Shown here piece by piece: positions 1,599 through 22,175 of a stretch of 26,490 nt of DNA. The DNA is from a virus. The notes below the pieces were generated by a model, which ran no database searches, had not been told where the DNA came from, and saw only the letters and a list, made by a program, of their open reading frames with translations. Position 1 is the first letter of the stretch. Every line of letters begins with the position of its first letter. The stretch spans positions 1-26,490 of IMG/VR virus record IMGVR_UViG_3300013102_000066. One strand, written 5' to 3'. A program made the position numbers and the translations under genes.

Positions 1599-2056
1599 GC
1601 AACGGACGCCTGCGGGATGTCCGGCGCATGATTTGTGCGCGAGTGACCGCGCTCCATTGGCGGAATGTCCGCCCGCGCTGCCGCTGCGACTCTTCGGACC
1701 TGCCTCTCAGAAATGCCGAACCGGATCGCCACCGCGCCCGGCGATGCACTCCCCAGTAATTTCAGGATGTCGTCATTGCGTGTCGCCTTGCGATGGAGCG
1801 AACACGTCGCAAGGAACATCAGCTCGCCGCCGAAATGTCTCGACAGCTTCAGCGCGTCGGTCCACCCGATAATTGCCACCAAGCGATGATCCGGCGGCAA
1901 CACCTTCGGCACGTACAGCACAGGCTCCCCGGCCCGGTGGCCTTTTGAGAATGCGCGCGGCAATTTGTCGACGAGCCGCAAAGCCAATTCATCGCCGATG
2001 ACTTCGGCAATCTGCTGCACGCTATCGGGGAGCGGCTTCGACATAGGCGGGGACAC
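1595..2056 (-). CDS. Mor-type transcription activator
   Basis: Resembles the Mor family (middle operon regulator of phage Mu). An N-terminal helical region reads IAEVIGDELALRLVDKLP, followed by a VLYVPK strand and a C-terminal helix-turn-helix, about residues 108-131, containing AIRFGISERQVRRVA. Mor proteins bind as dimers and recruit RNA polymerase to promoters lacking a good -35. As first gene of the lysis operon it would activate late genes. The start is uncertain: GTG at 2056 gives 153 residues and ATG at 2044 gives 149, and neither has a good ribosome-binding site. A palindrome (2107-2124) lies about 50-60 bases upstream. The stop overlaps the next start (ATGA). Confidence 0.7.
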   Translation of the reverse strand: MSPPMSKPLPDSVQQIAEVIGDELALRLVDKLPRAFSKGHRAGEPVLYVPKVLPPDHRLVAIIGWTDALKLSRHFGGELMFLATCSLHRKATRNDDILKLLGSASPGAVAIRFGISERQVRRVAAAARADIPPMERGHSRTNHAPDIPQASVA

Positions 2057-2106
2057 AAGGGACGATTGACTGTCCCCATTGTCCCCACTGTGCCGCTGCC
2101 GTCAAT

Positions 2107-3506: not shown

Positions 3507-3667
3507 TTGGTGGCCTCGGTAATGATCCGCAACGCTTCGTCGATGTCATCATCTTCCAACGCAAGACGGACCTGTTCAAGCGTGTTGATTGCCCTGCTTA
3601 CAACGCTTCGCGCGTGCTGCAACTCGTCGCGGAGCTGCTGCACTTCCATTGCGTGTTCAATGCTCAT
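3503..3667 (-). CDS. Hypothetical 54-residue coiled-coil protein
   Basis: A short acidic, helical protein (MSIEHAMEVQQLRDEL at the start, ALEDDDIDEALRIITEATK at the end) with heptad-like leucine spacing over its first 40 residues. It lies in a chain of 4-base ATGA overlaps between the genes ending at 3258 and 3664. The small size, coupling and regular spacing support it as a real gene. Function unknown. Confidence 0.55.
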   Translation of the reverse strand: MSIEHAMEVQQLRDELQHARSVVSRAINTLEQVRLALEDDDIDEALRIITEATK

Positions 3668-3912
3668 GCCTGCTCCCCCGCCTGGATATAGAACTGCGTT
3701 CCCCACGAATACGTTGCCAGCGGTGAAACTTCGATCCCTACCGCCGCCAACACGCCCTGCGCCACGATCAGAGCAGCAAGCGGACCCTTGACCGTGCCGC
3801 CGCGAACGTAGTCGTCGCACTTGACCTTCACGCCGTCGACGCCAGCGTTGCGAAGCGCTGCGTTTGCCTTGCGGCTCAGTGCGGAAGCGTTGTTGCTGCG
3901 GCTGTTGATCAT
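3664..3912 (-). CDS. Hypothetical protein, first gene of a palindrome-controlled operon
   Basis: An 82-residue protein with a basic N-terminus (SRSNNASALSRKANAALR) and an Ala/Gly/Val-rich middle (PLAALIVAQGVLAAVGIEV) that might be one weak membrane segment or a buried helix. A GGGGA ribosome-binding site lies six bases before the ATG at 3912. The promoter upstream carries the GTTACGCGCGTAAC palindrome. It ends in an ATGA overlap with the 54-residue gene. Family not recognised. Confidence 0.6.
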   Translation of the reverse strand: MINSRSNNASALSRKANAALRNAGVDGVKVKCDDYVRGGTVKGPLAALIVAQGVLAAVGIEVSPLATYSWGTQFYIQAGEQA

Positions 3913-3951: not shown

Positions 3952-3979
3952 ATCTTACAGAGTTACGCGCGTAACGCAA
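3952..3979 (-). promoter_or_regulatory. Promoter with palindromic operator, copy 1
   Basis: On the minus strand -35 TTGCGT (3979-3974) and -10 TAAGAT (3957-3952) are 16 bases apart. The perfect 14-bp palindrome GTTACGCGCGTAAC (3962-3975) fills the spacer and touches the -35. Bound protein would block polymerase, so repression is the simplest reading. It serves the gene starting at 3912. Confidence 0.65.
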
Positions 3980-3993
3980 TACCCCAGGGCATA

Positions 3994-4023
3994 AAAAAAC
4001 CCGCCGGGGACGTGGCGGGTTTT
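3994..4023 (-). terminator. Strong rho-independent terminator
   Basis: On the minus strand CCCGCC, an eight-base loop and GGCGGG are followed by seven T residues. A T-run on the plus strand as well makes it potentially bidirectional. It ends transcription arriving from the units at 4085-4611 just before the next operator-promoter. Confidence 0.85.
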
Positions 4024-4084
4024 CAGACATAGCGGCGGGACCTGGCTATCTTCTGCGTGGTGGCTGCGTGGTGGCGTTCATGGC

Positions 4085-4153
4085 TCAGCCTACCCGGCCA
4101 CTTGTGTCTGCGCATCGTGCATAGCGTTCCTCGCTCTTCATGCTGCTGTCCAT
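4085..4153 (-). CDS. Possible 22-residue micro-protein under an operator-promoter
   Basis: ATG at 4153 opens a 22-codon frame (MDSSMKSEERYARCADTSG then RVG) ending in TGA at 4085. An AGGGA ribosome-binding sequence lies about nine bases upstream, and the palindromic operator lies 57 bases upstream, the same distance as for the genes at 3912 and 9082. A terminator follows. The transcription unit looks real. Whether the product is this peptide or a small RNA cannot be decided. Confidence 0.35.
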   Translation of the reverse strand: MDSSMKSEERYARCADTSGRVG

Positions 4154-4199
4154 TATGGTCTGTCCCTGTTGCGAAAGCGGTCCCACCGCCGGTGCAAGT

Positions 4200-4228
4200 A
4201 AATTCTCATGTTACGCGCGTAACTTCAA
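4200..4228 (-). promoter_or_regulatory. Palindromic operator, copy 2, with weak promoter
   Basis: The perfect palindrome GTTACGCGCGTAAC is at 4210-4223. On the minus strand a -35-like TTGAAG (4228-4223) lies directly upstream and the -10 region (GAATTT or GAGAAT) is weak. The palindrome again occupies the spacer. Downstream are only the 22-codon frame and a terminator. Confidence 0.55.
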
Positions 4229-4257
4229 CCCCTGCCGTCTACGTCTTCAGCATCCGG

Positions 4258-4611
4258 TCACAATTCAAACAGCATGTTCCCGCCAGTTTTGCGCGGGGTT
4301 ATCCCAGCTTCCCGCAGCCATCGGCCGACGTTCAGGGCGTCCGATCGCGTCGACGGGAACTTGCCGGCAAGCAGCAGGAAGCGGCCGACGGTCACGCGCT
4401 CCCCCGTGCCGCGCAGCTTCTTCAGGGTATCGACAAACCACTCCGGGGCCTCTTCATCGCTTGTCCTGCGGACCTTTGCGGGTTCGGCGGCCTGGCTCGC
4501 CAGCGCCATGAATATGGCATCAAGCGATACCTTCAGCTTGTCGCGCGCCGGCTGTGCACTGAACAGCTCGCCGGCTTTCGCCCGCAAAGCTTTGAACTCT
4601 GCCGTGTTCAT
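4258..4611 (-). CDS. Hypothetical protein with possible winged-helix C-terminus
   Basis: A 117-residue protein. The last 45 residues (VGRFLLLAGKFPSTRSDALN, then VGRWLREAG and a basic hairpin ending NMLFEL) have the helix-helix-wing spacing of winged-helix DNA-binding domains found in some phage replication proteins. The N-terminal half is helical and charged. GAGGA precedes the ATG at 4611 by seven bases. It appears monocistronic under its own palindrome-bearing promoter, fitting a regulatory or early role. The domain call is tentative. Confidence 0.6.
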   Translation of the reverse strand: MNTAEFKALRAKAGELFSAQPARDKLKVSLDAIFMALASQAAEPAKVRRTSDEEAPEWFVDTLKKLRGTGERVTVGRFLLLAGKFPSTRSDALNVGRWLREAGITPRKTGGNMLFEL

Positions 4612-4640
4612 CGTTCATCCTCGGATGTTGTGGCGCGCAG

Positions 4641-4669
4641 GGTATCACTTACGCGCGTAACCCCGTCAA
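4641..4669 (-). promoter_or_regulatory. Promoter with palindromic operator, copy 3
   Basis: On the minus strand -35 TTGACG (4669-4664) is followed 17 bases later by GATACC (4646-4641). Between them CTTACGCGCGTAAC (4648-4661) carries the 12-bp palindromic core TTACGCGCGTAA, with one changed outer base compared with copies 1 and 2. It serves the gene starting at 4611. Confidence 0.6.
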
Positions 4670-4678
4670 CCCCGGAAC

Positions 4679-4703
4679 GAAAAACCCGCCGGGTCGCGGC
4701 GGG
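4679..4703 (-). terminator. Terminator closing the long early operon
   Basis: On the minus strand CCCGCCG, a five-base loop and CGGCGGG are followed by a five-base T-run. It lies 18 bases past the stop of the gene ending at 4721, so it probably ends the unit starting near 9130. Confidence 0.85.
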
Positions 4704-4720
4704 CTGTGTTCAGGTTGGCG

Positions 4721-4933
4721 TCACTTCCGGTATCGTTCAGCAGCCTCGACGATAGCCCGATAAATACACGTCGATGCGCTATCCCCATATCCCTCGGCCT
4801 GCAGTACGCCCAGGGCGTCGGCCGCATCCGCCGGCATGACTCCGCCAGGCATACGCCGCCCGCCATCGCGGATTTTCCGCAACTCGCTTGCGCGTACGCG
4901 TTCGGCGGCTGTTGCTGTCGGCTTCTTCGGCAT
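4721..4933 (-). CDS. Hypothetical 70-residue protein, possible small DNA-binding protein
   Basis: Starts MPKKPTATAAERVRASELRK and ends in a helix (IYRAIVEAAERYRK). The layout, a basic N-terminal stretch followed by two helices around MPADAADALGVLQAEGYGDS, resembles small phage regulators such as MetJ/Arc-type proteins, but no family match is certain. ATG 4933 is chosen over the longer start at 5029 because upstream residues overlap the dNMP kinase gene and are unlike a protein N-terminus. Last gene before the operon terminator. Confidence 0.55.
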   Translation of the reverse strand: MPKKPTATAAERVRASELRKIRDGGRRMPGGVMPADAADALGVLQAEGYGDSASTCIYRAIVEAAERYRK

Positions 4934-4953
4934 GCCTTCGATTCTACCGCGCG

Positions 4954-5550
4954 TCACGCCGAGCCGCCAAACAGTCCATCCGAAATCAGATCGTCGAAGA
5001 ATCTCACTAGCGTATTCTTGCTCTTGCAACCCGACAATCCATCCAGCGCAGCGGCGAGCATATCGTTCGGCGTGCCGATATTCCGAACCCGAAACGTAAC
5101 CAGCTCGGCCGGAAGCGGGCTCTCGCTGATATGCGAATCACCCTCGCCGGTGCCTGGCCTGTCGACCGCAATCACGACGCCACCATGCGCGAGGATCGCG
5201 CGCGCTTCGTTCGGGAAACGGACGTCGGAAATCACCACGTGCTGCGTGTGGCTGACACGGGCCATCAGCGAATTAACCCACAGCTCGGGGTGCACCATGA
5301 CGCGCCCCCACTCCGTGCCGACGGTCTGCATCATCTGGCGCGGCGTCACGCCATCCAGCCAGGGGATCGGGGTTTCCTTGTGCAGCTCCAACAGCTCCGG
5401 GTCCAGGCCGATAAGCTCGCCGATGAAGTTTCGAATCGGCGCCGCAAAGCTGTCCTGTCGCGCGTTCAATGCACCACACAGCAGGCGCGCAAGTGTGTCC
5501 TTGCCGGAGCGCTTCGGGCCGGCGATGCCGATCAGTAGTTTTGAAGTCAT
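4954..5550 (-). CDS. Deoxynucleoside monophosphate kinase
   Basis: Phosphorylates dNMPs to dNDPs for phage DNA synthesis, as T4 gp1-type kinases do. The P-loop GPKRSGKDT is at residues 11-19. The segment VVISDVRFPNEA (about residues 105-116) matches the conserved DVRF region of phage dNMP kinases. Length (198) fits the family. ATG 5550 overlaps the upstream stop (ATGA), and upstream residues in this frame have no P-loop context. Recycling host nucleotides beside a DNA methyltransferase gene suggests an operon for making and protecting phage DNA. Confidence 0.88.
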   Translation of the reverse strand: MTSKLLIGIAGPKRSGKDTLARLLCGALNARQDSFAAPIRNFIGELIGLDPELLELHKETPIPWLDGVTPRQMMQTVGTEWGRVMVHPELWVNSLMARVSHTQHVVISDVRFPNEARAILAHGGVVIAVDRPGTGEGDSHISESPLPAELVTFRVRNIGTPNDMLAAALDGLSGCKSKNTLVRFFDDLISDGLFGGSA

Positions 5551-5780
5551 TTTGCGTTTGTTCCCTCGGTTGTGCCATGCGCCAGCGTCACCAGCGACGA
5601 CACTGCTACGCGTCTCATTTCGCCGTCCTGGTACAGGTTGACGTACAGGCCGCCGCGTCCGCGCTGCTTGCGGAACGGCTTCAGCTCGCCCCGCGTCGTC
5701 GACCGCACCCGACCATCTGGCGTCGCCTGGTAGCGGCCACCGTGGCCGGGGATGTCGGCCCACCGCACGCCGCCGCTCAT
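5547..5780 (-). CDS. NUMOD4-domain protein without HNH nuclease
   Basis: A 77-residue protein whose first half (VRWADIPGHGGRYQATPDGR then VRS) is a clear NUMOD4 motif, a DNA-binding module normally fused to HNH homing endonucleases. The remaining residues (GLYVNLYQDGEMRRVAVSSL) match the conserved strand region that usually precedes HNH, but the frame ends there without HNH histidines. It overlaps both neighbours by ATGA. It may be a domesticated DNA-binding remnant of a homing endonuclease. Confidence 0.75.
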   Translation of the reverse strand: MSGGVRWADIPGHGGRYQATPDGRVRSTTRGELKPFRKQRGRGGLYVNLYQDGEMRRVAVSSLVTLAHGTTEGTNAK

Positions 5781-6082
5781 GGCGTCACGTCCAGCTGCTT
5801 GAACACGATCGCGCGCATGTCCTTCAAGTGCTGTTGCGTCGCCAGCAACGCACCAGCACTGCCGCTGCCCTCACTCGGCCGCAACCCCGCATCCCACAGC
5901 GCGTCAATGAGCGCCTGCGCCTCGCCCGGCTTCATGTACAGCGCCGGGTTAGTGGCCTCGTTTTCGCTGATCGGCTTGAACAACACCGGCACGGCCGCCG
6001 CGAAATCGTTGCCGGCTTCGTCGACGATGGTCAGCGCGATTGCGTTCCGCCGGAATTCGCGCTCCGCGTGGAATTTCAGCAT
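5777..6082 (-). CDS. Conserved phage hypothetical protein
   Basis: A 101-residue protein. The segment GEAQALIDALWDAGLRPSEG, then GSAGALLATQQHLKDMRAIVF, is a pattern I recall from many proteobacterial phage hypothetical proteins of similar size in early regions. No catalytic residues, cysteines or membrane segments are evident. The start overlaps the previous gene by 7 bases and the stop overlaps the NUMOD4 gene by ATGA. Confidence 0.7.
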   Translation of the reverse strand: MLKFHAEREFRRNAIALTIVDEAGNDFAAAVPVLFKPISENEATNPALYMKPGEAQALIDALWDAGLRPSEGSGSAGALLATQQHLKDMRAIVFKQLDVTP

Positions 6083-6411
6083 GACGGCTCTCCCGTCGGC
6101 GTGGCGGCCTCGGTGATCAGCTTTGCAAGCCTGTCGGTGATCAGTTTCACTTCGCTGGCGGCTACTCCGTTGACAACTGAAGATGATTGCGACAGCACAT
6201 CCCGGCGGCCGCTCATGTACGCCAGCAGCTCCCTAGCCCTGTGGATATGGATGGAGCCATCCATTGGACTCTCCGGCATCCGCGCGGCGGCCAGCATGAT
6301 CGCGTCCACCACCCAGTCATGCGGAGTGAACGGCACGCTGAAATAGCTCGGCGGGTTTGCCTTCGCGCACGCCACCGCAATGGAAATTGCTTGATCGCGA
6401 GCAATCCTCAT
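6076..6411 (-). CDS. Hypothetical early protein
   Basis: A 111-residue protein with an N-terminal helix (IARDQAISIAVACAKA) and a Trp/His-containing segment (SVPFTPHDWVVDAIMLAA) that recalls small phage proteins of unknown function. No recognisable motif. Starts with an ATGA overlap on the upstream small membrane protein gene and overlaps the next gene by 7 bases. Family not recognised. Confidence 0.6.
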   Translation of the reverse strand: MRIARDQAISIAVACAKANPPSYFSVPFTPHDWVVDAIMLAAARMPESPMDGSIHIHRARELLAYMSGRRDVLSQSSSVVNGVAASEVKLITDRLAKLITEAATPTGEPSC

Positions 6412-6647
6412 CCCCGCACGCTCCCAACAAAATTAGTGATCTGCCGCTTCACCGCAGCAGGAAGACGCACGCCGGATAGCGTCACCAGGCCATCAACAAG
6501 CCCGACGATCTGCGCCGCTTCAGCCAGCTTTCCGCGCGCGTCCCGCCGTTCCTCGCGCAGCATCCACGCGCTGCACGCCATGCCGATCGTGAACGCGACC
6601 AACACCATGATCCAGAAAAACACCAGGTCTACCGATGTCGTTTGCAT
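6408..6647 (-). CDS. Small single-pass membrane protein
   Basis: A 79-residue protein with one strongly hydrophobic segment (residues 8-30, FFWIMVLVAFTIGMACSAWML) followed by a charged helix (REERRDARGKLAEAAQ) and a basic tail. The Arg-rich flank suggests N-out/C-in topology. ATG 6647 is preceded by GGAG at a suitable distance, and the membrane segment starts near it. The longer frame to 6794 is rejected because it overlaps the next gene. Function unknown. Confidence 0.6.
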   Translation of the reverse strand: MQTTSVDLVFFWIMVLVAFTIGMACSAWMLREERRDARGKLAEAAQIVGLVDGLVTLSGVRLPAAVKRQITNFVGSVRG

Positions 6648-6661
6648 GCTCTTTGCTCCGG

Positions 6662-6928
6662 TTACGCGGAAGACAGCCGCTTCAGTACGTTGTCGGTTTC
6701 GATGCGCACGGCCTCGGCTCGCGCGGCATCGGCAATCTTGGTTTCGGCCTCGCGCAGGATGCCCGCGACGATCACGTCGAACGGACGTCCACATGCGGGC
6801 CGCAACGCGTCGGCATAGGCCGGCAGGGCGACCAGTCGCGCCGAGACAATGGCCGCTTCCACGCGCTCGATTGCGCGCTCGCGTATGCCTTCCTCGATCC
6901 GGTCGGAAAGTGGTTTCAGCGGACTCAT
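6662..6928 (-). CDS. Hypothetical helical protein
   Basis: An 88-residue alanine- and arginine-rich, almost entirely helical protein (SDRIEEGIRERAIERVEAA then a central PAYADALRPACGRPFDVIVA). The ATG at 6928 overlaps the stop of the zinc-finger gene (ATGA), which fixes the start. A much longer frame to 7288 exists but would lie over the zinc-finger gene. Function unknown. Confidence 0.6.
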   Translation of the reverse strand: MSPLKPLSDRIEEGIRERAIERVEAAIVSARLVALPAYADALRPACGRPFDVIVAGILREAETKIADAARAEAVRIETDNVLKRLSSA

Positions 6929-7242
6929 GCGTATTGCCTCGTTTCGTAGCGCTCGCGCATCATGTCGGGCGACAGTGCCGGGTTGTGCGCGCAGTACCCC
7001 CGGCCACGCCAGTGGGGGAAGCTGTAATTTCCGCAGCGGCATGTGTGCCCGCGCTGTTCGCGGCCGTCGGTGCGGTAGATGTCGACGCGATACACGCCCT
7101 TGCCGCAGCTGCGGCATTTCGGCGGGCGCAGGTAGTCGTCCGGATGGCGCGGCAAACGCCGACGCGACTGGCACTCGGCGCGATTGCAGCGGCACGCGTA
7201 GGAGTGCCGGCGCTGCACGAAGGCGCGGAACAGGACACTCAC
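6925..7242 (-). CDS. Cysteine-rich zinc-binding protein
   Basis: A 105-residue basic protein with cysteine pairs in two clusters: YACRCNRAEC near the N-terminus, then CRSCGKG, HTCRCGNYSF and YCAHNP. This suggests one or two zinc-binding folds and nucleic-acid binding. The GTG start at 7242 overlaps the stop of the 38-residue membrane protein (GTGA), matching the coupling seen across this operon. An ATG at 7275 would overlap far more. Family not recognised. Confidence 0.65.
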   Translation of the reverse strand: MSVLFRAFVQRRHSYACRCNRAECQSRRRLPRHPDDYLRPPKCRSCGKGVYRVDIYRTDGREQRGHTCRCGNYSFPHWRGRGYCAHNPALSPDMMRERYETRQYA

Positions 7243-7355
7243 CGGAACCACCGGAAGAAAGCGAGCGCGATCCACACCAGCGCGTCAACGCCCAGGGTAA
7301 GCAGGGCCAGCTGCACGCTTGAGTGGTGCCACCACGTACCGCTGCGGCGGCTCAT
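7239..7355 (-). CDS. 38-residue single-pass membrane protein
   Basis: A short frame (MSRRSGTWWHHSSVQLALLT then LGVDALVWIALAFFRWFR) with one membrane segment and basic residues at both ends. The ATG overlaps the methyltransferase stop (ATGA at 7352-7355) and the TGA overlaps the next GTG start. This double 4-base coupling in a tightly packed operon is the main evidence that it is a gene. Function unknown. Confidence 0.6.
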   Translation of the reverse strand: MSRRSGTWWHHSSVQLALLTLGVDALVWIALAFFRWFR

Positions 7356-8275
7356 GCGGCCGCCTTGAGCGCGGCAATCACGCGCTCGACGCCGACGGGC
7401 GGCGCGGCATTGCCGAGCATGTGCATCGCCATCCGGCCGTTTGTCGGCAGCAGGTAGCCGGCCGGGAACGTCATCGCCTGGCGTGCCTCGTCGACCGTGA
7501 TCATGCGCATGCGGTCGCCGTCGATCACGGCCCAGCGGTCGCGCGTGGTAATCGTGCCGATGGCACGGGCGAGTGATCTGCCGCCGGTGGTGGCACCGTA
7601 GAACGACATCAAGAACCGCTCGCCATGCTGCCGCCGGCCGTTCGCGATCCTCGCCAACGTCTTGACCGCTCTCCCCTTGCGCTCGATCGGCGACCAGCGT
7701 CCGGCGCTGAAGTCGATGATGTCGCTCGCTGGCACATGCGCCAGCTTCGGCAGCTGCAGCGTGAGCGGCGACTTGCTGCGCGTTAGCACGATCACGACGC
7801 GCTCGCGGTTCTGCGGGACGCCCAGGTCCGCGAAGTCGATCACATGGGGCGACACGGCGTAGCCGAGCGCCTGCGCAGCGTCACGCCACGCGCTGTAAAG
7901 CGTCCACTTCAGGAACGCCGGCACATTCTCGACCAGCGCGAATTGCGGCCGATGGCATTCAAGCGCGGAGATAACAGCCCATGCCGTGCTGCGGCACGCA
8001 TCGTGATGCGGGCGTTCCTTGCCGCGAGCCGGTGAGTGCCCCTGGCAGGCCGGCGACGCCAGCAGCAAATCGTGCGCCGGGACTTGCGTCCAGTCGGCTT
8101 GCTGAAGGTCCTGGCACGCGTGCGCGGTGTGCGGATGGTTCTGCGCGTGAATCTGCACGGCTTCCGGCCAGTGGTTCGCAGCCCATACGACGTGCACGCC
8201 TGCCGACTCGGCGCCAGTCGTGAAGCCGCCGACGCCTGCGAACAGGTCGATTGCGCGGAGCTGGCCGGCCATCAT
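7352..8275 (-). CDS. C5-cytosine DNA methyltransferase
   Basis: Transfers a methyl group from S-adenosylmethionine to cytosine C5. With the ATG at 8275 (307 residues) the motifs are: I, LFAGVGG (11-17), for AdoMet binding; IV, SPACQGH with catalytic Cys77 (Ala replaces the usual Pro before Cys); VI, ENV (116-118); VIII, QNRERV (155-160); and X, GNAAPPVG near the C-terminus. The start overlaps the upstream stop (ATGA). A 349-residue frame exists, but its extra N-terminus lies over the upstream gene. No restriction enzyme is adjacent, so it is an orphan methyltransferase, probably protecting phage DNA from host restriction or marking it for regulation. Confidence 0.93.
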   Translation of the reverse strand: MMAGQLRAIDLFAGVGGFTTGAESAGVHVVWAANHWPEAVQIHAQNHPHTAHACQDLQQADWTQVPAHDLLLASPACQGHSPARGKERPHHDACRSTAWAVISALECHRPQFALVENVPAFLKWTLYSAWRDAAQALGYAVSPHVIDFADLGVPQNRERVVIVLTRSKSPLTLQLPKLAHVPASDIIDFSAGRWSPIERKGRAVKTLARIANGRRQHGERFLMSFYGATTGGRSLARAIGTITTRDRWAVIDGDRMRMITVDEARQAMTFPAGYLLPTNGRMAMHMLGNAAPPVGVERVIAALKAAA

Positions 8276-8583
8276 CGCGGCAGCCTCACGACGCGATCGA
8301 TCGCGCCAAACAGCGTGTAAGGCACGTAGCACCCTGCGCGATGGTATCCACGGCGGAATTGCACCGGCATGGACAACGGGTCTCGCACTTTGCCGCACCA
8401 TGCCGCAGTTCGCGCCACGCGACAGACGTTGATCGGCAACGATTCCGTCTCAAGCTCGCGGCGCTTTTCCGCTGTCGTCCATTCGACGCCCTCGACAGGG
8501 CACCGAATCATGCGGAACAACCGGAACGCGCGATGCCAGGTCTTGCGGGCCGGGGATGAACGCTTGCGACGGGCGTTCATCAC
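8272..8583 (-). CDS. Hypothetical basic protein
   Basis: A 103-residue, arginine-rich protein (MMNARRKRSSPARKTWHRAF at the start, ending FGAIDRVVRLPR) with three scattered cysteines. The charge suggests nucleic-acid contact, but no fold is recognised. Both ends couple by 4-base overlaps to neighbours, and it directly precedes the methyltransferase gene, so it could be an accessory to it. That link is inference from position only. Confidence 0.6.
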   Translation of the reverse strand: MMNARRKRSSPARKTWHRAFRLFRMIRCPVEGVEWTTAEKRRELETESLPINVCRVARTAAWCGKVRDPLSMPVQFRRGYHRAGCYVPYTLFGAIDRVVRLPR

Positions 8584-8771
8584 TCGCTCCTGAAGAACGT
8601 AGCTTCGCGGTCGCCTTCGATAGCCATGTAAATGCTCTCGTCGACGTCCGGAAGGGCAATGATCTTCTGAGTGAGTTGGCCGGCAGTGTTCTCGGCTTGC
8701 TCAAGCAAGTAGGCAGCAGCCTCGCTTGCCGATGTTTCGTCGGGCAAGGTGATGGACAGATTCAGGATCAT
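8580..8771 (-). CDS. Hypothetical 63-residue protein
   Basis: A small acidic protein (MILNLSITLPDETSASEAAA then YLLEQAENTA and an acidic C-terminus EGDREATFFRSE) with a beta strand followed by helices. The ATG at 8771 overlaps the upstream stop (ATGA). The longer frame to 8828 is rejected because it would overlap the upstream gene by about 60 bases. Function unknown. Confidence 0.6.
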   Translation of the reverse strand: MILNLSITLPDETSASEAAAYLLEQAENTAGQLTQKIIALPDVDESIYMAIEGDREATFFRSE

Positions 8772-9082
8772 GACGCGCTCCCGACGTTGGCGAGGGCGGC
8801 GCGGACAACATCTTGGATCGTGAGCCACTGGCCATACGCGGGCTCTCTGCCGCTTTCACGCCATTGCGTGATCACGTGGTCTACATCGCGCAGAGCGGAA
8901 GTTGCCTCCGCCACGGCGGCGGTGTCGATGGCATACAGCTTTGTCCCGACAGGCCAGCGGCTACCGTCAGGCTGCTTGCGCAGATTGATGATGCAGTCCT
9001 CGCGAATCTCCGCGACCGGAACCAGCACACCCACCGATCTTCTTTCGGCCTTTGGAGCCTCGATTGCGTTGACGTTTTCCAT
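8768..9082 (-). CDS. Hypothetical protein, first gene of the methyltransferase/kinase operon
   Basis: A 104-residue protein. The middle (RKQPDGSRWPVGTKLYAI) resembles a segment common in short phage proteins of unknown function. No catalytic motif. AAGGGAA lies about six bases before the ATG at 9082. The promoter (9126-9156) carries the TTACGCGCGTAA operator, and the leader contains a 7-bp hairpin (9101-9119). It begins a run of coupled genes down to 4721. Confidence 0.65.
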   Translation of the reverse strand: MENVNAIEAPKAERRSVGVLVPVAEIREDCIINLRKQPDGSRWPVGTKLYAIDTAAVAEATSALRDVDHVITQWRESGREPAYGQWLTIQDVVRAALANVGSAS

Positions 9083-9100
9083 TGCAGGTTCCCTTGTATG

Positions 9101-9119
9101 CGGCCCCGAAGTGGGGCCG
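9101..9119 (-). promoter_or_regulatory. GC-rich hairpin in the operon leader
   Basis: CGGCCCC (9101-9107) and GGGGCCG (9113-9119) form a 7-bp stem with a five-base loop between the operator-promoter and the start at 9082. There is no U-tract, so it is more likely a 5' stabiliser or a translation-affecting structure than a terminator. Confidence 0.5.
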
Positions 9120-9125
9120 ACAGGG

Positions 9126-9156
9126 TTATCCTGCCACCATTACGCGCGTAACGCAA
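9126..9156 (-). promoter_or_regulatory. Promoter with palindromic operator, copy 4
   Basis: On the minus strand -35 TTGCGT (9156-9151) is followed after 18 or 19 bases by AGGATA or GGATAA. ATTACGCGCGTAAC (9139-9152), with the intact 12-bp core TTACGCGCGTAA, overlaps the end of the -35 and the spacer, as at copy 1. The shared extension TATTGCG upstream of both copies strengthens the match. It drives the operon 9082-4721. Confidence 0.65.
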
Positions 9157-9429: not shown

Positions 9430-11765
9430 AACGGCGACCCGCGACCGGAGCGCGGCGGCATCATCCAGCGCTTTGACCGCTTCATGCCGACCTGCTTTGT
9501 CTCAACGTTGTACTGCGCGACGACGTAAGCGGCTGCCTCGTTAACCTCTTTTTGCGACGGCTTTTCGATGCCGGCCGCTCGCGCGATATCCGTAGCGGAC
9601 ATTGCCGTCGTCCAGATCGTCGGCATGCACTCCCAATCAAATTCCTTGTCGATCAGATCATGCACAGGCTTGCTTGTTTCGTGCTGCTTGTTGTGGCTGT
9701 TCAGCGCGGTCACTTCGTCGGCGTCCAGGTGCCACGACTCGCCTGCATCGAAAAGTGACTTCACTTCAGCCCACACCTGTTGCATGTCGATGGTGTGCTT
9801 GTTGTCCAGCGCTTCCGCATGGATCGTCCACCACCGGGTATTTCCGGTCGGGTCGTGCAGGAATTGCGGGTCGTTGACGCTGGCGAAAAATACCGTTCTT
9901 CGCGCGTACTTCGAATCCGTGCGCGCGTAGGGTCTGCGCAGCGTGTCGCGGTCCTTCGAAATGAATGCCTTCAGCGCGGCGATGTCGGACTTGCGGAACG
10001 TGGCGTCGACCTCACCCAGCTCGACGATCCACTTCGATACGACGGTCATCACGCTGTCTTTGTCGGCGGGGTTGAGAATCAAGCCGTCGGCGATAACGTC
10101 CAGGTCCTTCGGCGCGAGCCGCTTCGCCCAATGCGTCTTGCCCAAGTTCTGCTTTGAGACGAAAGTCAGCACGCCGCGCGCGACAACCCCGTTCGGCGAG
10201 TAGGCGGCAGCCACGGCCGAAATAAGCCACTTGCGCATAAGCGCTTCTTTCAGGCTGGACCCGTCCGGCAGCTCGGTATCATTCTTCGCCGTGACCGTGT
10301 TGAAAAAGTCCTGCAGCCTCGACACACCATCCCACGGCGCCGAGTCGATCCACGTCGCCACCGGGTTGTATTGGTTCGCGTCGGCCAGGCTGCACAGGTT
10401 GCCGTCAAAGCCGCCGACTGGCATGCGCACGCGGTGCAGGCAGTTGTAAATTTCGTTGTAGCTGGCTTCCTTCGCGTTATCCAACGAAGTTCGCAGGCCG
10501 GGGACGATGATTTCAATATCCTTCTTGATCACGTCATAGCGCACGTTCGCGCCGATCCTGCGGAACAGCTCCGCCAGGTTGACCGCCGTCGGCAGCGGCT
10601 TGCCCTTGCCATCGAACTCGGGGAACGGGGTGAACGTGTCGAACGCCTGCACAGTGCGCGGCGCGATGTAGTGGCCGGGGCTTGCCATCTGCGCATCGTC
10701 ATCATCTTCCGGCGGCGCGATCGGGGCCGGCATCGGCGGAAACACCTGCGCCTGCACAACCTCGATACCCTCGCGCGACATCAGGTCATTGAAGTCTGTC
10801 GGCTTGTCGTCTTCATCGTCGGGGTCGATCCACGCGAACTCCGGAAACACCACGCGGGCGCCAACTTCTGCGGCGGCACGGCGTGCGTACGTGACGCCGG
10901 GGTTGTCGACCGGCGATTTCGTCCATTGGTCGTTATCCGCGCAGATGACAAACAGCGCCGCCGGCATTACCTCGCGCCATGACGCGACAACGTGCGGCAG
11001 GTTGTACGCGTCCCAGCAAACCACGACGCACCATCCCGTCGCTTGGTGAATCGTCTCGGCTGTCGCGTAGCCCTCGGCGAAGGCAACAGGCTGCCCCGGC
11101 ACCGGCCGTCCAATGACAAAGAAGCAACCACGCTTGCGGCCGCCGACAAGGAAATCCTTGTCACGACCGAACGCAGAATCTTCCGCAGGGAACACGCCCT
11201 GAAGGGAATAGATTTTCCCCTTCACGTCCATGATCGGAATGATCAGTGTGTTCGCGATCGTGCGGAACACTTCGCCAGCGGTGTTGCGCACCGGCCAGTC
11301 GCAGACGCGCAGGCCATGCGATCGCACGCCCTTGCGGGCAAGGTAGGGATGGTCGTCGCCGTCGACCGGCGCCGCATCGTTCCACAACAGGTTGGCGGTC
11401 TTCGCTGCCGCGCCTTCGCGCGCCTTCTGTGCCTTCTCGCGCTCGATCTGCGCCGCCTCGATCCGGCGGTTAATCTCGCGCTGCTCTTCAGGCGTCAACG
11501 TAGACCTGTCTTTCGCGCACCACGTCACGCTGTGTCCGGTCTTCCAGCTGCCGAACTCGCCGGCCGGGATGCCATCGGCAAATAGGATGTACCAGCCGTT
11601 GCGCGTGCCCTTGCTGTCGCCGTCGACATGGAACCGGCGCGGGTTGCCGTCGGCTGTCGGGCCGACCTCGATACCGCCGCCGCGCGGAAACACCGGAACG
11701 ATGCCAGCGGAGCGCATCGCAGATTCAAAATCGGCGATGATGTCCTTTTCGTTGAACTCACTCAC
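9426..11765 (-). CDS. Toprim primase / VapE-like helicase fusion
   Basis: Replication protein of 779 residues. The N-terminal part contains a Toprim-like catalytic region (FAEGYATAETIHQATG about residues 228-243, with the acidic ADNDQW about 278-283), as in phage primases. The C-terminal half (about 380-760) matches virulence-associated E/superfamily 3-like phage helicases. Its P-loop is SKQNLGKTHW (about 536-545) and a Walker B-like segment is KWIVELGEVD. The usual first Gly of the P-loop is Ser, though GKT is intact. It would prime and unwind phage DNA. It overlaps the HTH gene and the 89-residue gene by ATGA. Confidence 0.88.
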   Translation of the reverse strand: MSEFNEKDIIADFESAMRSAGIVPVFPRGGGIEVGPTADGNPRRFHVDGDSKGTRNGWYILFADGIPAGEFGSWKTGHSVTWCAKDRSTLTPEEQREINRRIEAAQIEREKAQKAREGAAAKTANLLWNDAAPVDGDDHPYLARKGVRSHGLRVCDWPVRNTAGEVFRTIANTLIIPIMDVKGKIYSLQGVFPAEDSAFGRDKDFLVGGRKRGCFFVIGRPVPGQPVAFAEGYATAETIHQATGWCVVVCWDAYNLPHVVASWREVMPAALFVICADNDQWTKSPVDNPGVTYARRAAAEVGARVVFPEFAWIDPDDEDDKPTDFNDLMSREGIEVVQAQVFPPMPAPIAPPEDDDDAQMASPGHYIAPRTVQAFDTFTPFPEFDGKGKPLPTAVNLAELFRRIGANVRYDVIKKDIEIIVPGLRTSLDNAKEASYNEIYNCLHRVRMPVGGFDGNLCSLADANQYNPVATWIDSAPWDGVSRLQDFFNTVTAKNDTELPDGSSLKEALMRKWLISAVAAAYSPNGVVARGVLTFVSKQNLGKTHWAKRLAPKDLDVIADGLILNPADKDSVMTVVSKWIVELGEVDATFRKSDIAALKAFISKDRDTLRRPYARTDSKYARRTVFFASVNDPQFLHDPTGNTRWWTIHAEALDNKHTIDMQQVWAEVKSLFDAGESWHLDADEVTALNSHNKQHETSKPVHDLIDKEFDWECMPTIWTTAMSATDIARAAGIEKPSQKEVNEAAAYVVAQYNVETKQVGMKRSKRWMMPPRSGRGSPF

Positions 11766-12358: not shown

Positions 12359-12774
12359 TCACCCCTCACGATGCGCAAGGCATCGGCAATGCTGCGCGCG
12401 AAGCCGGTACGGCCGCCGAGCTGTTTGACGGCGACCGCGAAGCGCTCTTGCGCCTCGCGCGCCCTGCCCTTCGACGACTTGCACTCGATCGCGGTGAAGA
12501 CAGCGACGGTCGACCCGACCATGTCCGCCGTTACGACGACCGGGACCGCGCCGAAAACGTCACTGAAGCCCACCGGCAACCCAGTCGAAAACGGGCGCGG
12601 GTTGCGCAGAATCAGCGAGCCATCGGGCAGCTTTGCGATGTCATTCGACGCCCAGGCCGTGCCGACGTTTGCGCGGAAGAACATGCCATCGTCGACAAGT
12701 GCGTTGCGGATGTCGGTCTGCGTGGCATGTTCCGTCGACCGAACGCGGACGCGGGTGTTCTTCGTGTGGATCAT
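12355..12774 (-). CDS. VRR-NUC domain nuclease
   Basis: A 139-residue stand-alone PD-(D/E)XK nuclease of the VRR-NUC type, a family cutting branched or junction DNA. The motifs are visible: DIRNALVDDGMFFRANVGTA near the N-terminus, GFSDVFG with the active-site Asp, FTAIECKSSKGRA giving the E-x-K pair, and QERFAVAVKQLGGRTGFARS as the C-terminal helix. The start at 12774 (MIHTKN) is chosen for its ATGA overlap and because upstream residues are low-complexity. It may resolve replication or recombination intermediates. Confidence 0.85.
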   Translation of the reverse strand: MIHTKNTRVRVRSTEHATQTDIRNALVDDGMFFRANVGTAWASNDIAKLPDGSLILRNPRPFSTGLPVGFSDVFGAVPVVVTADMVGSTVAVFTAIECKSSKGRAREAQERFAVAVKQLGGRTGFARSIADALRIVRGE

Positions 12775-14228: not shown

Positions 14229-15692
14229 TTAAGCGGATTGCAGCTGTGTGCTATCCCTCGCAATTTGTTTGCGCCAGGGCGAATTGCTCCATTTCTTGAA
14301 AGCCCAGCCTGTCGGGTTCGAATAACCGCGACGGTTCGCGAGCGCGATCAGGTCGGCGATCGATTTCGCGTCGTGTTCTTCGCGGCGAAGCTGCGCGCGG
14401 ACGGCGGCCTTGTCGGCGTCGGTGCGGCGTGTCAGCTCTTCGTCGCCTTCGTCGACCGGCTTCACGTCGGGCACGATTGCGATACCGCAATGCGGGCACT
14501 TCGTCGGCAGCGGCCGCTTGATCTGGCGGAAGCACTTGCAGGTATACGGCGGCGGCGGCCCGTCTTCGCCCTTGCCGCCCTTGCCGGTGCGCTCGCGATC
14601 GTCCAGTGACCATTCCCGTTCGTCGTCGGGGAAGCCGTGCACGTTGCTGTTACCGGCGTGGTCAAGGATCACGGCCGGAAAGTCTTTCGGGCGCAGCACG
14701 CGACCCCACCGCTGCAGTACGGCAGACAGTGATTGCGTGGGCGCCGCGTCAATCAGGCAATCGACGGTCACGTCCGTCTGCGCGATGGCGGACAGGTCGA
14801 AGCCTTCGCCGAAGAGCGCGACGTTCGACACAACCAGCAGGCGGCCATCGGCAAAATCTCGAATGATCTGCTTGCGGTCTTCCTTCGGGGTGTCGGCATC
14901 CAGGTGTGCGGCGGGAATGCCGGACTCATTGAAGCGCGCGACGATCGTCATACTGTCCGCGACGTTCACCGCGAACGCGATCGTTCGAAGGCCGCTCGCG
15001 TACTTGCGCCAGTGCTTCACGATGTCGCCGGTGCGCTTCGGCATGTCCATGCGCTGCGATGCGTCGCGCTTCGTCCAGTCGCGTGACTTGTCTTTCCGCG
15101 CCCCGGTCATATCCGGCGGGTTCGGCGCGAAGATTTCATATCTCGACAGGAACCCGCGCTCGATCAACCAAGCGGGCGTCGGCCCCTCAACCATGTATTC
15201 GAACTGCCGCCCCAAGCCGGAGCCGTCAAGCCGCCAGGGTGTCGCGCTCAGGCCGATGTGTCGCGCGTTCGGCCACGCGTCCATGATTGCTTGCCAGCCG
15301 GCGGCGCCCAGGTGGTGGCATTCATCCCATATCGCGATAGCCGGCTCCGGCGTAGTCAGAAGCCGGTTCTTCAGCGTGTCGATGCTGCAGATCACCGCGT
15401 GCGCTGGTGCCTTCGGTCTGCCGGCGGCGATGAAGCCGTGCGCGATGCCGTACTTCTGCCACGTCCTGGACGTCTGCTCGACCAGCTCGGCGCGATGGCA
15501 GTTGAAATAAACCAACTTCCCGCGCGCGGCGATTTCCTGCGCGAGGAATGATGCAATCGCGGTCTTTCCGCCGCCGGTCGGCAGCTGCAACAGCACGCGC
15601 CGGTACTTCCGCAGCGCCTCGCGCAGCGCATCAATCGCTGGCACCTGATATTCAGGGCGCAGGACCAGTGCGGCGGCCGGACGTGCGTTCAT
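14229..15692 (-). CDS. SF2 DEAD/DEAH-type helicase with zinc finger
   Basis: A 487-residue ATP-dependent helicase. Motif I PTGGGKT is at 38-44, motif II DECH at 123-126 and motif III SAT at 149-151. The C-terminal helicase domain carries QRWGRVLRP (motif VI type). A zinc-ribbon-like insert (CKCFRQIKRPLPTKCPHCG) lies near residues 388-407. The ATG at 15692 is preferred because GAGG lies six bases upstream. An ATG at 15737 would extend the protein through the inverted-repeat control region. It probably unwinds or restarts forks with the primase-helicase operon. Confidence 0.9.
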   Translation of the reverse strand: MNARPAAALVLRPEYQVPAIDALREALRKYRRVLLQLPTGGGKTAIASFLAQEIAARGKLVYFNCHRAELVEQTSRTWQKYGIAHGFIAAGRPKAPAHAVICSIDTLKNRLLTTPEPAIAIWDECHHLGAAGWQAIMDAWPNARHIGLSATPWRLDGSGLGRQFEYMVEGPTPAWLIERGFLSRYEIFAPNPPDMTGARKDKSRDWTKRDASQRMDMPKRTGDIVKHWRKYASGLRTIAFAVNVADSMTIVARFNESGIPAAHLDADTPKEDRKQIIRDFADGRLLVVSNVALFGEGFDLSAIAQTDVTVDCLIDAAPTQSLSAVLQRWGRVLRPKDFPAVILDHAGNSNVHGFPDDEREWSLDDRERTGKGGKGEDGPPPPYTCKCFRQIKRPLPTKCPHCGIAIVPDVKPVDEGDEELTRRTDADKAAVRAQLRREEHDAKSIADLIALANRRGYSNPTGWAFKKWSNSPWRKQIARDSTQLQSA

Positions 15693-19291: not shown

Positions 19292-19519
19292 GTGGCACGC
19301 AATCTAATCAGACTTCCCATCGTGAAGGCACGCACCGGACTTTCGAAGTCCACGATTTACGCGCGCGTCAAGGAAGAGCTGTTCCCGAAGCCCGTCCCGC
19401 TCGGCAATTCGCTTTCCGCATGGATTGAAGACGAAATAGACGCGTGGGTCGAAGCCAGAATCAGCGCGCGCGACGCGATGCCGCCCGCTTCGACGACTTC
19501 GGCCCAGGCTTCCGCCTAA
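19292..19519 (+). CDS. AlpA-family regulator / excisionase
   Basis: A 75-residue protein with the AlpA winged-helix pattern: LIRLPIVKARTGLSKSTIYA (residues 5-24), PLGNSLSAWIEDEIDAWVEA (36-55). AlpA proteins activate or repress integrase genes and act as excisionases, the closest known members being the regulator of prophage CP4-57 and P2 Cox-like proteins. The start is GTG. Its 3' end overlaps the convergent integrase gene by 59 bases, so each transcript is antisense to the other's end. The GGACGC repeats upstream are its likely operator. Confidence 0.88.
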   Translation: MARNLIRLPIVKARTGLSKSTIYARVKEELFPKPVPLGNSLSAWIEDEIDAWVEARISARDAMPPASTTSAQASA

Positions 19520-20723
19520 TCGGGGACTCGTCGGCGCCGGCCTGCTCGATCCACTCCGACCACTCTTTCATCATCGCGATTCGCTCCGGCAGATATTCCG
19601 CGTGGTTGTACGCCGCGCCCACCTTGTCGGTTTTCGCGTGCGCCATCTGCATTTCCACGACATCACTTCGGTAACCCATTTCGTGCAGATGCGTCGATGC
19701 GGTCGCGCGGAAGTCGTGCCCGGTGAAGTAGCCCGATGGATAGCCCATGTGTTCCAGCGCGCGATTGATCGTCGTCGCTGTCATGACGTCCTTTGGCCGA
19801 CGGTTGTTCGGGAACAGATGGACATTCGCCCCGGTGATGTCGTGCAGCTCGCGCAGAAGCTCCACAACCTGCGGAGCCAGCGGCACCAGGTGAATACGGC
19901 GCTTCTTCATGCGCTCGGCCGGGATGGTCCACAGCGCGGCATCAAGGTCGAATTCTGACCACGGCGCCCTGCGCAATTCGACCGTACGCACGAACGTCCG
20001 CAGCAGCAGGCCGAGCGCTATTGTCGTCGTCCGGTTACCGCCGTAGGCCGCCACCCGTTGCAGCATGTCGCGGATCGTGTCGCGGTCTTGCGCGCTGGCG
20101 TGCTGCACTTGCGGCTTGATGATCGCGCGGCGAATCGGCCAGGTCGGGTCGATGTCGGCCCGCAGGTTCGACACGGCGTAGACGTACACTTGCGACACCA
20201 GTTGCCGGACAAGGATCGCGGCCGACTCGGCGCCACGGTCAGCGATGGCGCGGACCACGGCCAGCCATTCCGCCGACGTGATGCTTCGAATCGGTCGCCG
20301 CCCCACCTTCGGGTAAACGTCCCTGTCGAAGTAGGAGCGCACCTGGTCTTCATACTTCGCCGACCACCCTGGCCGGTTTTCCTTCGTGATCTTCGCGTCG
20401 ATCCACTCTTCCGCGACGGCGCGGAAGTGATCGCCTGAAGCCGACACAGCGGCGCCCAGTGCGCGCGCCCGATCGTGTGCCGGGTGTGTGCCTGCCTGCA
20501 CCAGTGCGCGGGCCTTTGCGTGCGCTGTGCGCGCGTCCTGTAAGGTGACCTCGGGATAGGCGCCAAGTGCGAACAGATTAGGCTTGCCGCCGATGCGGTA
20601 CGCGTAGCGCCAGAGCTTCGATCCGTTCGGCCGAACCTCGATCAGTAGGCCGCCACCGTCGGCCAACCGGAAAGGCTTCGCCGCCGGCTTCGCTTGGCGG
20701 ATGCGGACATCAGTAAGGGGCAT
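19461..20723 (-). CDS. int: Tyrosine integrase, DUF4102/P4-like type
   Basis: A 420-residue site-specific recombinase. The N-terminal arm-binding domain (residues 1-88, LADGGGLLIEVRPNGSKLWR) is the DUF4102 type of P4-like integrases. Catalytic residues of the C-terminal domain are visible: Arg246 (TFVRTVELR), a Lys near 273, His336 and Arg339 (GHDFRA), His362 (MAHAK) and the nucleophile Tyr372 (AAYNHAEYL). It would integrate and excise the phage. It is convergent with the AlpA-like gene and divergent from the attP-like region upstream. Confidence 0.95.
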   Translation of the reverse strand: MPLTDVRIRQAKPAAKPFRLADGGGLLIEVRPNGSKLWRYAYRIGGKPNLFALGAYPEVTLQDARTAHAKARALVQAGTHPAHDRARALGAAVSASGDHFRAVAEEWIDAKITKENRPGWSAKYEDQVRSYFDRDVYPKVGRRPIRSITSAEWLAVVRAIADRGAESAAILVRQLVSQVYVYAVSNLRADIDPTWPIRRAIIKPQVQHASAQDRDTIRDMLQRVAAYGGNRTTTIALGLLLRTFVRTVELRRAPWSEFDLDAALWTIPAERMKKRRIHLVPLAPQVVELLRELHDITGANVHLFPNNRRPKDVMTATTINRALEHMGYPSGYFTGHDFRATASTHLHEMGYRSDVVEMQMAHAKTDKVGAAYNHAEYLPERIAMMKEWSEWIEQAGADESPIRRKPGPKSSKRAASRRAR

Positions 20724-21076: not shown

Positions 21077-21106
21077 TTGCTACTTATCCCCGTCATCCTG
21101 TATCGT
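21077..21106 (+). promoter_or_regulatory. Promoter of the SprT-like gene with TCCCTSTYATCCTGM element
   Basis: TTGCTA (21077-21082), 18 bases, TATCGT (21101-21106). The element TCCCCGTCATCCTGT is at 21087-21101, and a half-site TATCCCCG of the 2107/11999 palindrome is at 21085-21092. The leader to the ATG at 21146 also holds the palindrome GCGTTTAAACGC (21116-21127). Confidence 0.5.
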
Positions 21107-21145
21107 CTGTCCATCGCGTTTAAACGCATAGACGGACGGCACGAC

Positions 21146-21823
21146 ATGACGAAGAACAACCGCGAAACCTGGCTCAACCAGCTGGCCGAAATGATGGCGC
21201 CGCGCTTCGCTGAACTCGGTTACCCGTTGCCGCCGTTCCGGGTATCGGTCGGCTTCCCGTCCGCCGGCATGAAGTCGCGCGCGATCGGCGAGTGCTGGGA
21301 CAAGTCCGCATCCGGTGACAAGCACTTCGAAATCTTCCTTCGCCCCGACCGCTCCGACTCGATGGACGTAGCCGCCACCCTGGCTCACGAACTGGCGCAT
21401 ACGGCCGTCGGCCTGGATCAGGGCCACACCGGCAACTTTGCCCGTGTCGCGCTCGCGCTCGGCCTGCGCCGCCTGTTCGCCACGACTGCCGGCCCTGCTT
21501 TCATCGCGTGGGTAGAGCCGATGCTGGAAAGGCTCGGCCGGATCCCGCATGCGCCTCTGTCATGGCGAACAGGCGGCGGCGTGACGCGTGGCGGTGGCGG
21601 TATCCTGCCGAAGCCACCGCGCGACGACAGCGGCGCCAGTGACGCCGATGGCGAGCATGACGACGACGTGCCACAGTCCAGTGCGCCGCCGAAGCAGACA
21701 ACCAGGCTCCGCAAAGCATGCTGCGCCGACTGCGGCTACACCGTCCGCGTAACGTCCAAGTGGCTGGAAATCGGCCCGCCGCACTGCCCAGTGCACGGCG
21801 CGATGGCGGTCGACGTGGAGTAA
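21146..21823 (+). CDS. SprT-like zinc metalloprotease
   Basis: A 225-residue protein with the SprT motif HELAH at residues 81-85, followed by a third zinc ligand candidate His94 (QGHTG). A C-terminal cysteine cluster (CCADCGYTVRV and PPHCPVHG, about 190-211) forms a probable zinc ribbon, the layout of SprT/SPRTN-like proteases. Related enzymes cut proteins crosslinked to DNA. Whether this one does so is inferred. ATG 21146 is chosen because upstream residues cover the promoter. A terminator follows the stop. Confidence 0.88.
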   Translation: MTKNNRETWLNQLAEMMAPRFAELGYPLPPFRVSVGFPSAGMKSRAIGECWDKSASGDKHFEIFLRPDRSDSMDVAATLAHELAHTAVGLDQGHTGNFARVALALGLRRLFATTAGPAFIAWVEPMLERLGRIPHAPLSWRTGGGVTRGGGGILPKPPRDDSGASDADGEHDDDVPQSSAPPKQTTRLRKACCADCGYTVRVTSKWLEIGPPHCPVHGAMAVDVE

Positions 21824-22103: not shown

Positions 22104-22175
22104 TGGTGGATCGCGTGAGAATCGAACTCACCGCGCCGATCTTGCAAGGATCAGCTGCGCCCCAGCGCGCAACCC
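22104..22175 (-). tRNA. tRNA-Ala(UGC)-like gene
   Basis: Read on the minus strand: acceptor stem GGGTTGC pairs with GCGATCC (two G-U pairs), then A and encoded CCA. The anticodon arm is TGATC, loop CTTGCAA, GATCG, with anticodon TGC (22146-22144) preceded by T33. The variable loop is GCGCG. The T arm is GTGAG, TTCGATT, CTCAC, perfectly paired. Oddities are positions 8-9 reading GC instead of TA and a very short D loop. It may be a divergent phage tRNA, or degenerate. 72 bases including CCA. Confidence 0.65.

Follow-up and report, generated by a model that had tools for sequence, protein, structure and literature searches.

The palindrome TTACGCGCGTAA is probably the operator of a 70-aa protein encoded on the minus strand at 4724-4933, which would be an autorepressor of early operons in this phage. 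This assignment rests on the sites themselves, the geometry of their promoters, the finding of gene and operator together in unrelated elements, and a conserved gene order. From these data we inferred that the protein binds the site, dimerises, represses rather than activates, and acts early. The two partners were paired purely from sequence, in phages with little else in common, and they would make up a repressor-operator pair whose protein family is named by no library.

We also put forward, more tentatively, that an unnamed family of ribbon-helix-helix (RHH) autorepressors, similar to the anti-CRISPR-associated (Aca) proteins, moves together with one operator among unrelated phages and plasmids, and that this operator marks early counter-defence operons. 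If this is true, operator scanning would be a route to new anti-defence proteins. An Aca-like regulator would make the operator a tag for operons of small uncharacterised proteins, a class in which anti-defence functions are known to be frequent. Moreover, a correct reading would give an initial insight into regulatory logic in the Foxunavirus phages, a group under study for the biocontrol of crop disease.

Palindromic Sites in the Spacers of Leftward Promoters

The window, which is the whole stretch of DNA analysed (26,490 nt), contained TTACGCGCGTAA exactly four times, at 3963-3974, 4211-4222, 4649-4660, and 9140-9151. Under a first-order Markov model of the window, 0.0013 exact copies are expected, and a scan of the window with up to two mismatches gave no TTACGCGCGTAA-like site beyond the four exact copies. 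The initial annotation had described these copies as a regulon of leftward promoters whose spacers hold a repressor-like palindrome, and the sequence scan agreed with its details: copies 1 and 2 form the 14-bp palindrome GTTACGCGCGTAAC, the 12-bp core is what remains in copies 3 and 4, and copies 1 and 4 share an upstream TATTGCG. The distance from site to leftward start codon is 37-57 bases, as claimed, with site 2 measured to the 22-codon frame at 4153-4085. The same annotation held that many copies scattered inside genes would speak against a regulon. Such intragenic copies occurred only as chance matches among 2.9 million contigs, and none was found in the phage or its relatives. A text search of 5.39 million papers for the palindrome sequence gave no match.

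Read on the minus strand, each of the four sites has a TTG-type -35 before it and a -10-like hexamer after it, so that the palindrome falls in the spacer of a leftward promoter at every site. Operator 1 (GTTACGCGCGTAAC, 3962-3975) occupies the spacer of TTGCGT (3979-3974)-N16-TAAGAT (3957-3952) and drives 3912-3664 and the genes after it. Operator 2 (GTTACGCGCGTAAC, 4210-4223), located before the 22-codon frame, has the -35 box TTGAAG (4228-4223), an N15 spacer, and the -10 box GAGAAT. Operator 3 (TTACGCGCGTAA, 4649-4660), flanked by TTGACG (4669-4664) and GATACC (4646-4641) at N17, drives 4611-4258. Operator 4 (TTACGCGCGTAA, 9140-9151), with TTGCGT (9156-9151), N17, and CAGGAT, stands at the head of a leftward gene run from 9082 to 4724, which ends with the candidate regulator. 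The -10 boxes of these four promoters are each weak, and a generic consensus promoter scan called none of the four. The promoters were assigned because the pattern is common to 20 further sites in other phages; an inverted repeat within the core promoter is conserved across the 24 aligned sites. That this arrangement recurs in many other phages supports the regulon proposed initially. A reading of the palindrome as an RNA hairpin or terminator was rejected, since it sits upstream of the predicted transcription start.

A degenerate fifth operator, TGACGCGCGGTA (4945-4956, minus strand), lies in the spacer of TTGGCG (4970-4965)-N18-TAGAAT (4946-4941), a consensus-like promoter directly 5' of the gene for the 70-aa candidate regulator. 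Comparable weak sites were found ahead of the regulator gene in L093 and L094. On the same strand, shortly before operator 3, the regulator operon ends in a terminator-like hairpin (4683-4705).

Association of the 70-aa Family With the Operator

The initial annotation saw no obvious binding protein in the window. Cross-record comparison picked the 70-aa protein as the strongest candidate. The open reading frames of palindrome-bearing viral records were compared all against all, with no prior assumption on the family, and the 70-aa family was the most widespread, being present in 11 records compared with 7 for the next best; G010 and G013 likewise carry it. An unbiased table was then drawn up from 50 records picked by the 14-mer alone, with promoter-like placement defined as a promoter score of 8 or more. 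This score, which was selected after the pattern had been seen, was reached in 12/12 carriers of the family and 4/38 non-carriers (P 1.5e-8). When duplicates were removed, the numbers were 10/10 and 4/30, respectively (P 1.2e-6). Furthermore, 15 of 18 records had an operator-promoter on the same strand as the regulator gene, 0.3-4.3 kb ahead of it. Scans for TTG together with the 12-mer brought in 15 further records. None of these had the regulator gene and most lacked a suitable -10, and they were taken as chance hits; the short pattern alone is therefore insufficient to prove the system.

In the reverse test, searches were made with the 70-aa protein alone and the records found were inspected for operators. 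An exact site was present near the gene in phage Rb1, a Synechocystis plasmid, and the metagenome phage L096, where 0.0005-0.001 exact sites each are expected by chance. In Rb1 the operator is downstream of the gene and overlaps the -10, and it is not clearly within the spacer. Variant operators, palindromic or nearly so, were found at the same promoter position in FoX2 (TTACGTGTGTAA), L106 (TTACATGTGTAA), and L102 (TAACGCGCGTTA); FoX2 has three such operator promoters. Kintu, L103, and L104 encode regulator homologs but had no recognisable operator, and a search for spacer palindromes in them gave nothing convincing.

Homologs of the 70-aa protein include gp48 of Xanthomonas phage FoX2, whose genome is syntenic with that of the window phage, and proteins of Murka, M29, and Rb1. 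All four are annotated as hypothetical or DNA-binding protein only, and the main text of the Murka paper does not mention a promoter, palindrome, or repressor. The regulator module persists in the FoX phages (Foxunavirus), which are described as lytic phages whose integrase is a pseudogene (PMC10892653).

Features of the Candidate Regulator

The open reading frame of the candidate regulator spans 4721-4933 on the minus strand (cited here as 4724-4933). A distance of 64 bases separates the gene from site 3 downstream of it, and the leftward run from site 4 ends with this gene. The protein matched no family library, no HTH family, and no Pfam entry. Its sequence contains an RHH-like core, RRMPGGVM, followed by two helices, and the predicted model has two short strands, a helix at 35-46, and a helix at 53-69. 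In a monomer model, a ribbon that is shared in the dimer may appear as a hairpin. Foldseek searches with the core model returned weak hits, mostly to RHH, RHH-like, or TCP DNA-binding domains, with E values of 3.5 to 10 that are not significant. The full-length model matched nothing in the PDB and, among viral models, one relative just above the threshold. Profile comparison with Arc, CopG, Mnt, NikR, and PutA was weak (hhalign probability 4%), and single sequences did no better. The core is probably of the RHH (MetJ/Arc/CopG) type, with a strand-helix A-helix B topology. In the homologs, altered strand residues went together with operators that were altered or undetected, an indirect hint that a dimer may read the symmetric operator with its ribbon.

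Genes Behind the Operators

The first gene behind operator 1 encodes an 82-aa protein (3664-3912) and the first behind operator 4 a 104-aa protein (8768-9082), both on the minus strand and without assigned function. The operator-4 run also contains a C5 cytosine DNA methyltransferase (7352-8401, minus strand; PF00145, E 3.6e-43) and, directly upstream of the regulator, a deoxynucleotide monophosphate kinase (PF21448), listed as an open reading frame at 4954-5763 on the minus strand, with its true start probably near 5551. The 117-aa protein behind operator 3 (4258-4611, minus strand) had been called a possible winged-helix protein; its sole match was PHROG 23491, which has no assigned function, and it has homologs in at least six related phages. 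A sample of the operon proteins matched no functional family in Pfam or PHROGs, and these searches brought up no known acr gene in the operons of the candidate regulator. In a blastn search of the region against phages, only fragments of the methyltransferase and kinase were matched. With the primase and the 117-aa protein as baits, viral contigs yielded a near-identical record and one distant relative. An alignment considered as a further bait had no sufficiently conserved stretch.

Proposed Mechanism and Alternative Readings

Placed between the -35 and -10 of sigma-70-type promoters, the operators would lie within the footprint of RNA polymerase. Upon infection, these promoters would fire unaided and the operons of small proteins would be expressed. 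The regulator produced from those operons would dimerise, bind the palindromes, and shut the promoters, its own included, so that expression would be capped as Aca caps anti-CRISPR operons.

The same regulator and operator could instead serve lysogeny, with an immunity repressor silencing the early operons and, in some relatives, the late-activator gene until induction. The window and G013 carry an integrase gene and an AlpA-like gene. A Mor-like late activator gene follows an operator-promoter in G010, and the Mor genes of G008 and G013 have weaker matches in front of them. However, integrase and AlpA were not found in most carriers, and the gene is not restricted to lysogen-forming phages, since the lytic FoX phages with their integrase pseudogene carry it (PMC10892653). 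Moreover, the gene is part of the operon that it would shut down, which is how feedback control is arranged. We consider this reading unlikely. Between the two options of the initial annotation, genes silent in the lysogen or read early, the latter appears to fit the sequence better.

If the 70-aa protein bound the palindrome as an activator, it might work from the spacer in the manner of MerR, and the position of the site and several poor -10 boxes are compatible with this. MerR promoter spacers are 19-20 bp long, whereas the spacers here are mostly 15-18 bp and many have good -35 and -10 boxes (for example, TTGACG-N16-TATAAT in G016). Such spacers and -35 boxes would suit an RNA polymerase without an activator, and activation is quite improbable.

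It is very improbable that another phage regulator binds the site. A ParB-like protein, a 65-aa HTH protein, and a Mor-like activator, all of DNA-binding families, are encoded in the window, but they are mostly restricted to close relatives. In whole-record searches of 22 records, the three occurred in 6, 8, and 10, respectively, and six distinct operator-bearing phages had none of them; some records lacking them are fragments. On this distribution, they were rejected as the common binder. Phages can use host repressors, but a host regulon is the least probable reading, as a search of bacterial and archaeal genomes totalling 257 billion bases did not find TTGACGTTACGCGCGTAAC and the site tracks the phage gene through unrelated elements.

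Comparison With Known Systems

Arc of P22 and plasmid CopG are small RHH repressor dimers that autoregulate through a symmetric operator overlapping the -35/-10 spacer, and each controls a single local promoter region. The 70-aa autorepressor proposed here would resemble them as a putative small dimer of RHH type, in the symmetric operator in the spacer, and in the predicted autoregulation. It differs in its proposed dispersed regulon and in an unusual PGG in the strand segment, and no significant sequence or profile match links them.

The autorepressors Aca1-Aca10 belong to helix-turn-helix families (PMC9410906), whereas the 70-aa family is probably RHH-like, without a library sequence match; the Pfam and PHROGs searches of sampled operon proteins brought up no known acr gene, and the promoters predicted to be under its control number up to four or more in a phage. 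The likeness to Aca lies in a small, predicted DNA-binding protein encoded within the operon proposed as its target, in a conserved inverted repeat in the core of a promoter that would otherwise be constitutive, and in a regulator that is retained while the remaining operon genes vary between phages. Aca8 and the early-gene regulatory sequence of rudiviruses differ in their archaeal promoters with BRE and TATA box, their winged-helix regulator, and their unrelated sequence, but they share with the present system the scheme of one proposed repressor and one conserved promoter element for several early operons of small uncharacterised genes (PMC11065993).

Putative palindromic operators in the window

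Four copies of the palindrome TTACGCGCGTAA are present in the window (putative operators 1-4 at 3963-3974, 4211-4222, 4649-4660 and 9140-9151) against about 0.0013 copies expected, and no further copy within two mismatches was found elsewhere in the window. The initial annotation had described two 14-bp palindromes and two sites keeping a 12-bp core, 37-57 bases upstream of leftward start codons, with TATTGCG common to copies 1 and 4, and all of these details were borne out. On the minus strand, every site is flanked by a TTG-type -35 and a -10-like hexamer. The assignment of these promoters rests on comparison with other phages because a generic promoter scan called none of the four. The regulon that had been proposed from these sites is real, and it extends further than was first described.

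Identification of a candidate regulator

When 2.9 million viral contigs were scanned for GTTACGCGCGTAAC, 59 stretches were returned. Many were apparent chance matches within coding DNA, while one class showed the pattern TTGACG-TTACGCGCGTAACG-(-10), in some cases with two to four copies. Longer stretches of the records in this class were retrieved and all ORFs were compared against all ORFs. The most widespread family comprised small proteins from 11 records, compared to 7 for the runner-up cluster; it is also encoded in G010 and G013, two palindrome-bearing viral records overlooked by the clustering. The window member lies within ORF 4721-5029 (-), and alignment places its start at 4933, which gives a protein of 70 aa (4724-4933, -). 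No match to the family was found in Pfam, NCBIfam, PHROGs or PDB sequences. The binding protein had been considered not obvious in the window; judged from sequence, this window-encoded protein is the likely binder of the palindrome, a regulator of new family and known design.

Three other window-encoded proteins were rejected as the common binder: the Mor-like activator, the 65-aa HTH protein and ParB were present in 10, 8 and 6 of 22 records, respectively, and six distinct operator-bearing phages lack every one of them. Strict patterns detected neither TTGACGTTACGCGCGTAAC nor relatives of the regulator protein among 84,980 bacterial and archaeal genomes; distant relatives could escape such patterns.

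Link between the candidate regulator gene and the palindrome

Fifty records were selected by the 14-mer alone, irrespective of the regulator gene, which was present in 12 of them. Around the palindrome, the highest promoter score was at least 8 in 12/12 carriers compared to 4/38 non-carriers (P 1.5e-8) and, with duplicates removed, in 10/10 compared to 4/30 (P 1.2e-6), P values that are somewhat optimistic since the score was picked after the pattern had been seen. A score of at least 9 was reached by 6/10 carriers and 0/30 non-carriers after removal of duplicates.

In the reverse test, the regulator protein was the sole bait. It reached the Xanthomonas phages FoX1, FoX2, FoX3, FoX5, Murka, M29, Rb1 and Kintu, together with a Synechocystis plasmid and records L093, L096, L102, L103, L104 and L106. 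Rb1, the plasmid and L096 have the exact palindrome close to the gene, where 0.0005-0.001 copies would be expected in each, L093 has one-mismatch operator sites, and FoX2, L102 and L106 carry variant sites, palindromic or almost so, at the same promoter position. No operator was seen in Kintu, L103 and L104 despite the regulator homolog, and it is in the strand segment that their proteins diverge most, with RRLSTM or GRQVGV in place of RRMPGG. The L106 protein has RRLSPM in this segment, yet the variant site is retained. The plasmid, recorded from Synechocystis sp. B12 (L090; operator at 19049, regulator at 19983-20222), would represent a wide jump from proteobacterial phages.

Anatomy of the putative operators and operon layout

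In an alignment of 24 sites, TTGACG or TTGCG abuts TTACGCGCGTAAC, and the -10 follows a few bases further. In 15 of 18 records, the regulator gene has an operator-promoter, with the palindrome in the -35/-10 spacer, 0.3-4.3 kb upstream on the same strand; in two of the three exceptions the gene is near a contig end. This operator-promoter is the sole one in G014, G016, G017, G018, G019, L102 and the plasmid, where it heads a short regulator-containing operon. Operator 4 of the window stands at the head of a run of leftward genes that encodes, among others, a dNMP kinase and a C5 methyltransferase; the regulator is the last gene of this run and is followed by a good predicted terminator, and operators 3, 2 and 1 each precede one further predicted unit (three in all). 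The kinase-regulator order recurs in L093 and G010. Moreover, a degenerate operator sits in a consensus-like promoter immediately before the window regulator gene, and similar weak sites precede the gene in L093 and L094. Record G003 (L067) carries two pairs of exact operators, at 12761/12798 (starts 37 bp apart) and 14609/14632 (23 bp), a pairing that would suit cooperative binding or looping. In G003, a homolog of the SprT-like metallopeptidase gene of the window (21077-21823, +) sits behind the operator-promoter at 14632.

In G010, an operator-promoter precedes the gene of a Mor-like late activator. The corresponding promoter of the window (2030-2100, -) retains the hairpin and TTGACG of G010 (CCCGAACGGGGATAATTGACGG) and has lost the operator; the late activator may therefore have left the regulon in the window phage. 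Upstream of the same gene, the non-coding segment 2171-2379 (-) contains seven GAGTA[CT] (leftward: GTACTC or ATACTC), with one copy in the rest of the window, and this cluster may constitute another set of binding sites.

Predicted fold of the candidate regulator

The AlphaFold model (pLDDT 91) consists of a helix at 9-22, short strands at 26-28 and 31-33, and helices at 35-46 and 53-69. The full-length model had no neighbour among PDB structures. The matches of a core-only model (pLDDT 90) were all weak (E 3.5 and above) and were nearly all ribbon-helix-helix (RHH) antitoxins, CdbA or plant TCP domains, the last of which are RHH-like. Compared as profiles, the regulator family showed no significant similarity to sequences of Arc, CopG, Mnt, NikR and PutA. 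The models thus suggest an RHH-like protein, short of a proven RHH member. The regulator of G016 (L075) carries a fused N-terminal domain (MSKFAV...), which a neighbouring gene (9823-10167) encodes without the predicted DNA-binding core.

Origin and gene content of the window

The window is an IMG/VR virus record of 26,490 bp, and one further record (L005/L066) is near-identical to it. In gene order and homologs, the window agrees with FoX2 and other Foxunavirus phages, including tail proteins, SSB, helicase, ParB, the small HTH protein, primase, early small genes, the Mor-like activator, endolysin and spanins; with FoX2 as yardstick, the record lacks the genes for terminase, head and baseplate. 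A tyrosine-type integrase of 420 aa (19461-20723, -) and, at its end, an AlpA-like gene (19292-19519, +) are common to the window and G013 (L073; 62% identity) and were not found in FoX2. The window may therefore represent a temperate phage related to a lytic genus. An integrase pseudogene has been described in the lytic genus Foxunavirus, some relatives of which look temperate (Murka paper, PMC10892653). Between the integrase and tail genes lies a tRNA-Ala (TGC; 22104-22175, -), and the same region of FoX2 holds a tRNA-Leu.

Proposed mechanism and known parallels

Most likely, a regulator dimer would bind the spacer palindrome and block RNA polymerase at the operator promoters, and expression from these promoters, the regulator's own included, would be capped. 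In a sample of operon proteins, the predicted targets matched almost nothing known. By analogy they may have an anti-defence role, for which the sole further help is the methyltransferase in the window operon. The arrangement proposed here is the same as that shown for Aca proteins, the anti-CRISPR-associated autorepressors, whose operons encode the regulator and have a conserved inverted repeat inside the core promoter (PMC9410906). For archaeal viruses, a similar design that involves Aca8 and the early genes has been put forward as a proposal (PMC11065993).
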